This document shows positions 1 to 647 of a stretch of DNA of 49,971 nt, piece after piece. Position 1 is the stretch's first letter; each line of letters opens with the position of its first letter. The translations under genes and the position numbers were made by a program. A model generated the notes under the pieces. The model saw nothing but the letters and a program-made list of their open reading frames with translations, searched no databases and was not told where the DNA came from. The stretch is from Comamonas jiangduensis (lineage in GTDB: Bacteria; Pseudomonadota; Gammaproteobacteria; Burkholderiales; Burkholderiaceae_C): positions 1-49,971 of the forward strand of contig NZ_CADEPJ010000200.1 in NCBI RefSeq assembly GCF_902829245.1, read 5' to 3'.

Positions 1-647
1 CTGTGGTAGCGGTCCACCCAGGCTTTGTCCGCAGGCCAGCCTTTGCTCCAGGCCAGTTCGTTGAGTTTTTGCCCTGTGGTGCCCGTGCCCACCCGTCGCT
101 TAAAGCGCGAGAGCAGGTCAAAATTCTGCGCCACAAAATCCAGCATAGCGGGCTTCATGGCATCGTGCGCAATCAGCGCCACGGTCTGGTTTTCAAAGTC
201 ATGAAAGCGATCGGCATTGCGGTCGCGCGCCAAGCCTGCGTGCATGCGCTCCATCTCCACCCAGTCGCGCGCCGTGGCCACGGTAGAGATAAAGGGCTTG
301 CCGTGAATCACGCACTGGCGCTTCAAAGCCAATGCTTCCGGGAAGATGGAGGATGGATCGACCGGGTCGGTCAGGTAAATGGCGCCATCCAGCGTGCGCC
401 CCTCGCCCATGCCCACCACCTCAGCCACCAGCTTCATCAGCCCGCCTTCGCGGCCATAGGGGTAGCGCACCAGGTTGCTGTAGCGGTGCATCATGTTGGC
501 GGCGGCAATCGCATCGTAGGTGCGGCCCACAGCGTGCAGGCCCAGGTTCAGCTCGCGCATGCCGGATTCACAGGCGCGCAGCAGCGCAAACAGTGCGGCA
601 TCTTCGGTTTGGTGGTGGAGTCGGTTCGCAGCAAGGCCTAACAGCAT
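1..647 (-). CDS. mgsA: Methylglyoxal synthase, tandem-domain form (3' end outside window)
   Basis: Methylglyoxal synthase converts dihydroxyacetone phosphate to methylglyoxal and phosphate in the cytoplasm, a bypass of lower glycolysis. About 215 residues are visible; the C-terminus lies beyond base 1. Residues 155-205 carry the start of a canonical domain: ALIAHDAMKPAM (the HD-containing first strand) and the phosphate-binding GTGTTG. Residues 1-150 are not a random extension: RYPYGREGGLMKLVAEV followed by DGAIYLTDPVDP and a PFISTVATA segment lines up with the second half of the E. coli enzyme (GGDQQ, IFFWDP, ATNVATA), so this reads as a degenerate first copy. It lacks the catalytic Asp of GGDQ. 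The ATG at 647 has AAGGAA about nine bases upstream; a GTG at 653 is the alternative start. The family call is firm; the tandem-domain reading is my own alignment by eye. Confidence 0.85.
   Translation of the reverse strand, partial: MLLGLAANRLHHQTEDAALFALLRACESGMRELNLGLHAVGRTYDAIAAANMMHRYSNLVRYPYGREGGLMKLVAEVVGMGEGRTLDGAIYLTDPVDPSSIFPEALALKRQCVIHGKPFISTVATARDWVEMERMHAGLARDRNADRFHDFENQTVALIAHDAMKPAMLDFVAQNFDLLSRFKRRVGTGTTGQKLNELAWSKGWPADKAWVDRYH

Follow-up and report, generated by a model that had tools for sequence, protein, structure and literature searches.

Why does a methylglyoxal synthase (MGS) gene encode some 150 residues ahead of the part that looks like MGS, and what could this extension do? 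The question is raised by a stretch of 49,971 nucleotides from Comamonas jiangduensis (hereafter, the window), which is an entire contig (C200) of a source genome of 2.76 Mb in 322 contigs, 75.45% complete. At positions 3-647 of the reverse strand, ORF reading gives a single open frame of 215 residues with an ATG start and no stop codon, and the gene overruns the contig end. Its features are as follows, with window coordinates and with single residues numbered as in E. coli MgsA.

3-647, reverse strand: two-domain MGS-like protein, visible 215 residues (open frame); about 74 C-terminal residues are cut off by the contig end
210-647, reverse strand: N-terminal MGS-like domain without the MGS catalytic residues, residues 1-146 (hhalign, PDB profile search, NF003559)
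513-530, reverse strand: VGRTYD, counterpart of the T-G-T-T-G phosphate loop (T45 to V in 40/41, T47 to R in 40/41, T48 kept in 41/41)
438-464, reverse strand: YPYGREGGL, counterpart of SGPxGGD (Asp71 to Leu in 41/41 N-domains)
318-368, reverse strand: DPVDPSSIFPEALALKR, counterpart of DPxxxxPHxxDxxALxR (without His98; Glu for Asp101; Asp91 and Arg107 retained)
3-191, reverse strand: first part of the canonical MGS domain, residues 153-215 (NF003559, 3.5e-9 on a 69-residue piece, window 3-209)
153-170, reverse strand: AHDAMK, that is His19, Asp20 and Lys23 of E. coli MgsA (each in 41/41 C-domains)
72-89, reverse strand: GTGTTG, phosphate loop of the canonical domain (T45, T47 and T48, each in 41/41)

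In a scan of genome contigs we found 29 loci at 71-92% identity over residues 1-215 or 3-215, hosted by Comamonas, Delftia, Acidovorax, Diaphorobacter, a Comamonadaceae bacterium and MAGs titled Proteobacteria, and also by Pseudoxanthomonas, Stenotrophomonas and one Lysobacteraceae genome. Read to the stop codon and counted from the matched position, these relatives have 286-294 aa, and a full length of about 289 aa is expected from those of the Comamonas type. The missing C-terminus, which the original prediction had hoped to recover, could be supplied from relatives but not from the source genome, where it has no match and the sole match to the protein spans residues 1-214. A PF02142 search of that genome gave matches at C40 and C67 and missed the two-domain gene itself, and a Pfam scan of the window protein and of its two parts returned no MGS match (a chance row, Peptidase_M24_C on the C piece, had an E-value of 0.081). 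It is extremely improbable that chance resemblance, or an assembly artefact in the window, explains the two-domain gene. The contig is indeed a fragment of an incomplete genome, and the similarity of the neighbouring transporter gene to its relatives ends near 1256-1269, but the two-domain frame is held open in 29 other loci and in further genomes, one of the loci (L012) being a complete-chromosome record; relatives with the same two-domain frame rule this explanation out.

The transporter gene is a matter of its own. Around 967-1270 the window carries a Bcr/CflA-type MFS transporter frame (the family was named on the relative L003), divergent from the MGS gene, as it is in related Comamonas. 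Near 1256-1269, where DNA similarity to relatives ends, the frame continues into an antisense short-chain dehydrogenase (identified by eye) whose C-terminus is missing too. The remainder of the transporter has its best match on another contig (G000:C115:4942-5892, residues 94-410, 78% identity), where it is joined to a Rieske oxygenase (also by eye). The junction between transporter and dehydrogenase is either a misassembly or a real rearrangement.

Homology of the N-terminal domain to MGS

The profile search proposed for the N-terminal 150 residues turned out positive: an hhalign comparison of 17 N-domains with 19 single-domain MGS proteins gave a probability of 96.8% (E 2.8e-10) over 119 columns, with N columns 4-136 facing MGS 9-127. 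Against all PDB chains, the N-domain profile listed 12 sequences within E 10; MGS accounts for ten of them and fills the first seven ranks, 1wo8 being the best chain (E 2.1e-5). Ready-made family models pick up the N-domain more weakly: NF003559 aligns its positions 13-128 (of 145) with the N-domain of the window at E 2.5e-4, and among 17 diverse N-domains it reports 15 within E 10, the best at 4.9e-6. Furthermore, a profile built from 26 single-domain MGS proteins scored all 21 N-domains tried, at 7.4-30.3 bits, and reported none of the 21 reversed copies; 1050 shuffled copies reached at most 5.1 bits. The resemblance is beyond chance, since 21 of 21 outscore the best of these shuffles. In the opposite direction, the N-domain profile scored 25 of the 26 single-domain MGS proteins at 8.8-26.6 bits (the one not listed is L047), against at most 5.7 bits for 1040 shuffles, and in a genome scan it matched the canonical MGS of genome G105 (E 3.2e-4).

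Significant profile similarity to MGS runs along the whole N-domain, which places it in the MGS-like superfamily. Judged by these profiles, the MGS-like domain formed by the N-terminal ~140 residues is complete. The alignment by eye of the original prediction, which had matched this part to the second half of the MGS fold, was right about the resemblance and about the motifs it quoted (EGGLMKLVAEV, GAIYLTDPVDP and FISTVATA are all present) and too narrow in its extent, as the match covers the whole domain.

Structure models were also computed. The full-length model (24 rows) has a mean pLDDT of 73.4 and a pTM of 0.78, with residues 1-10, 66-68, 81-89, 95-101 and 259-261 under pLDDT 50 and with ten-residue pLDDT means of 39 to 89 in the first 150 residues. 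Its two halves show strands and helices in matching order. In the PDB, at E up to 0.001, this model finds 26 chains of MGS (best 3.9e-8) besides a single carbamoyl phosphate synthetase, and its VIA Z to MGS is 14.0-15.7, the PDB matches lying mostly over the C half. The model of the N-domain alone is poor (pLDDT 59.3, pTM 0.54). With this low-confidence model Foldseek returned nothing at E up to 0.001, and MGS was absent among the 50 rows shown; VIA gave Z values of 3.0-4.4 to MGS chains, its first six rows being of MGS fold at 3.6-4.4, a range that VIA itself rates as common.

Residues, selection and origin of the two domains

Residue counts were made on 41 two-domain genes (37 distinct N cores and 39 distinct C cores), the window gene excluded; a larger count of 43 N and 40 C rows held duplicates (L069 = L022 and L072 = L012) and led to the same conclusions. 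The canonical part, which had been predicted to start near residue 155, begins at about residue 153, with ALIAHD at 157-162 and GTGTTG at 187-192. An excerpt of the MGS literature (PMC1877815) names three catalytic residues, H19, D71 and H98, and assigns substrate recognition to D91 and D101 and binding to the amide of G66. All six residues on that list are kept by the C-domain in 41/41 genes; the window sequence stops before G66, so that all except H19 rest on the relatives. D20, K23, T45, T47, T48, S65 and R107 are likewise kept in 41/41. By contrast with single-domain MGS, where N113, A117 and N119 are found in 25, 26 and 26 of 26 proteins, the C-domain has Asn at 113 in 1/41, Ala at 117 in 5/41 and Asn at 119 in 0/41. 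The NF003559 equivalog cut-off of 84 is passed by four of five full-length proteins (98.7-105.2 bits, the lowest value being that of L003), with L082 just under it at 83.5, and in the genome scan by 11 of the 13 two-domain genomes besides the source (G267 reaches 81.4 and G007 79.9 bits); the cut window gene scores 53.6. Scores fall below two further cut-offs, which are model cut-offs and not biochemical criteria: 67.8-91.7 bits for five proteins against 146.9 for TIGR00160, and 13.9-15.1 bits for four proteins against 24.1 for Pfam PF02142.

The N-domain presents a different picture. The loss of the catalytic Asp and of the GTTG loop, noticed in the window, holds across the family: Asp71 is Leu in 41/41 N-domains, with Asp in 41/41 C-domains and 26/26 single-domain MGS, and the loop has changed to GRT-x in 40/41. 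Beyond these, the N-domain lacks Lys23 (0/41), Thr45, Ser65 (0/41) and His98, whose position is occupied by Ile, Thr, Val or Leu in 41/41, while the position of Asp101 holds Glu in 40/41 and Asp in 1/41. As to the set needed for an active MGS (H19, D71, H98), D71 and H98 are each found in 0/41 N-domains, and the counterpart of His19 is His in 36/41, in an alignment made uncertain by a four-residue insert. On the other hand, T48, G66, G69, G70, D91, P92, A104 and R107 are each retained in 41/41, and residues such as A18 are retained as well. We take the canonical phosphate contacts to be K23, T45, T47, T48, S65 and G66; the N-domain keeps T48 and G66 of these six, with conserved Arg and Lys nearby in sequence. 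For G66 alone is this assignment backed by the paper (PMC1877815).

Among 17 N-domains, 26 residues are invariant: 17 Gly, Pro, Cys or non-polar ones, and nine that are polar or charged (R9, T43, R61, Y91, D94, D97, S100, K109 and R110). Most of these nine fall in counterparts of active-site loops; R42, a basic residue like R61, K109 and R110, is almost invariant in the same 17-row set. Pairwise dN/dS (Nei-Gojobori, 21 pairs in three groups) was 0.026-0.166 for the N-domain and 0.023-0.206 for the C-domain, rough values as dS is near or above 1 for many pairs, and mean pairwise identity in a wide set of 20 proteins was 59% for N and 64% for C. N and C stand in one frame in 22 of 24 entries for N-domain loci (several entries repeat one gene), the other two being the cut window gene. 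Genes read in relatives found by other routes are fused too, and among the uncut genes read the N-domain is always joined to a C-domain. These values indicate that the N-domain is under purifying selection about as strong as the C-domain and is not decaying. The first domain had been called degenerate; diverged but conserved describes it better. Profiles together with the pattern of catalytic residues, missing from N and retained in C in all 41 genes, bear out the proposed fusion of a pseudoenzyme to an enzyme, and comparative sequence data support a conserved N-domain within it.

The claim of a tandem duplication did not fare as well. The N-domain profile reaches 26.6 bits on single-domain MGS but no more than 7.3 bits on the C-domains of the same proteins, little above the best shuffle at 5.7, which opposes a recent duplication. 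In shallow, Comamonas-centred alignments, hhalign of N (A2) against C (A3) followed the expected diagonal with a probability of only 2.4%. The N-domain is closer to single-domain MGS (24% identity) than to its own C-domain (19%), and each half thus seems to have departed from the single-domain form in a direction of its own. In a tree of 68 domains, N-domains, C-domains and single-domain MGS each fall on one side of a branch, with supports of 100/100, 99/96 and 80/78; the tree program cautions that N and C join through long branches and that L082_N is very long. Identity to single-domain MGS over E. coli residues 14-60 and 61-107 is 43% and 43% for C and 22% and 30% for N, whereas over 108-125 it is higher for N (25%) than for C (18%), a hint of complementary loss between the two. 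Fusion of two older paralogues would fit as well as an ancient duplication after which both copies diverged.

Possible role of the N-terminal domain

The explanation we favour, tentatively and at close to even odds, is a two-domain MGS whose N-domain acts as a regulator that binds an anionic metabolite and stands in the place of a neighbouring subunit. The C-domain would turn dihydroxyacetone phosphate (DHAP) into methylglyoxal and phosphate. The N-domain would sit where the neighbouring subunit stands in the MGS oligomer and tune the C-domain from there, an idea that builds on what we presume to be the oligomeric state of E. coli MGS. Its ligand would probably be an anionic metabolite, either phosphate or a sugar phosphate, bound in a remodelled pocket to which the R-T loop, the G-x-x-GGL loop and the conserved KR pair contribute; the whole would be a built-in allosteric switch, akin to the MGS-like domain of carbamoyl phosphate synthetase. 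The suggestion that the first domain serves allosteric or phosphate sensing is plausible. In its boldest form, which we regard as possible though rather doubtful, the protein is a self-regulating MGS in which an ancient dead sister domain replaces every second subunit and became the dedicated metabolite sensor of the DHAP-to-methylglyoxal bypass.

What tips the balance from scaffold to sensor are the nine polar or charged residues among the 26 invariant ones of the N-domain: they lie mostly in counterparts of active-site loops, where a pure scaffold has no need of them. The sensor is weakened by the disappearance from the N-domain of most of the presumed canonical phosphate contacts, and by the 17 other invariant residues, Gly, Pro, Cys or non-polar, which fit a scaffold too. 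That the N-domain is a structural partner only, a non-binding pseudo-subunit that provides an oligomer interface and folding support in a pseudo-oligomer with half the active sites, after complementary degeneration of the two domains, seems unlikely, even though A18, G66, G69, G70, A104 and R107 are retained and N is closer than C to single-domain MGS at E. coli 108-125, C being closer in the two preceding segments. We consider it quite improbable that the N-domain is a second enzyme, which carries out another reaction with a related phosphorylated compound as its substrate: the Asp91 counterpart (41/41), Glu at Asp101 (40/41), the His19 counterpart (36/41, alignment uncertain), Arg and Lys nearby and a dN/dS about as low as that of the C-domain would suit it, but two of the three residues called catalytic in the excerpt of PMC1877815, Asp71 and His98, are lost in 41/41 and a new catalytic dyad is not obvious.

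The C-domain itself could have changed its trade. Its position on an own branch (99/96), its scores below the TIGR00160 cut-off and the Pfam MGS gathering score, and the absence in most genes of N113, A117 and N119, (nearly) invariant in single-domain MGS, all speak against an MGS and for a protein that has left MGS chemistry altogether, with a C-domain acting on another substrate. We nevertheless judge this very unlikely, as H19, G66, D71, D91, H98 and D101, the residues named in that same excerpt (PMC1877815), are kept in 41/41 and four of the five full-length proteins scanned score above the equivalog cut-off of NF003559.

Several known systems can be set beside a regulatory N-domain. MgsA (EC 4.2.3.3; NF003559, TIGR00160; b0963 in E. 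coli) resembles the C-domain in motif order, active-site residues and model fold; unlike MgsA, the present protein has two MGS-like domains per chain, the first without catalytic residues, and its C-domain, besides scoring under the TIGR00160 cut-off, is in most genes without N113, A117 and N119. The product of MGS is toxic and its synthesis has to be controlled; in known MGS phosphate control belongs to the catalytic oligomer itself. The IMP cyclohydrolase domain of PurH is an MGS-like fold within a fusion protein, and PurH chains 7mgq and 1zcz match our full-length model with VIA Z of 7.9 and 7.5, but that domain is catalytic, with other chemistry. In CPS1, according to excerpts of PMC4655335, the MGS-like domain is an allosteric domain that binds N-acetylglutamate. 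The MGS-like domain of CarB and CPS1 is alike in being a non-catalytic MGS-like fold fused to an enzyme, and offers a model of regulation (PMC4655335, excerpts); it differs in being C-terminal and in regulating an unrelated enzyme, where ours is N-terminal and fused to an MGS domain.

A limited search of open-licence literature found no description of a two-domain pseudoenzyme-enzyme MGS, nor of control of MGS by a sensor domain. The family name and, as annotation, the function of the C-domain are already known; the two-domain build is the new part. If the regulatory reading is true, catalysis and a second site lie on different domains, separable by simple deletion or point changes, and the protein is a clean case of enzyme-to-pseudoenzyme evolution within one chain. 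In part of the Burkholderiales and some Xanthomonadales, a gene that bears the name methylglyoxal synthase should not be presumed to act as E. coli MgsA does.

Distribution and gene neighbours

NF003559 matched 43 of 300 genomes of the window's order, the Burkholderiales as judged from its Comamonas relatives: 14 with the two-domain gene (source included), 27 with single-domain MGS (one of them truncated at a contig end) and two with long frames of 1056-1060 aa, presumably CarB. No separate single-domain MGS was found among the matches in the 14 two-domain genomes, which makes the two-domain protein probably the MGS of the cell, although by chance no more than about one overlap would be expected in 300 genomes. 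The N-domain profile had 17 true matches in 399 genomes of the order, six in 369 of the class and 11 in 398 of the phylum, all 11 belonging to the same class or nearer. The order scan had given 19 matches, two of which were left out: in G105 the profile matches locally inside a single-domain MGS, and the G299 protein is, by eye, of ThiF/MoeB type.

Twenty-two loci were compared with a crude gene finder and clustering. None of the neighbours is common to all 22, the widest cluster covering 6/22, which is weak evidence as the finder overlooked the two-domain gene itself in 3/22 (L030, L073 and L078). In genome G500 (L082:3567-7733), edd (952.6 bits, TIGR01196) and eda (245 bits, TIGR01182) are followed by the two-domain MGS, which in this locus bears an extra C-terminal part of about 230 residues; the best PDB match of that part has an E-value of 1.2, and the Pfam rows on the whole chain are MGS only. 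The products of edd and eda feed the triose-phosphate pool. At L078:6416-8188 a KefC-like potassium efflux gene (444.5 bits, model cut-off 752) adjoins the two-domain MGS convergently, and one gene of the same cluster occurs in the same-genus L080. Entner-Doudoroff and Kef neighbours fit methylglyoxal metabolism. In L070 the two-domain MGS is preceded by iscS, hscA and fdx, with the same clusters in L068 and L079; these neighbours speak neither way on a role as MGS.

A scan of viral contigs gave no relatives of the two-domain gene. Plasmids gave 51 matches in 72,556 records, of which one spans most of the query: a 310-aa protein of Acidovorax sp. DW039 at 52.8% identity, annotated plainly as methylglyoxal synthase. 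At L109:4935-5867, on a 365-kb Acidovorax plasmid, the two-domain relative is followed by an IS30 family transposase.
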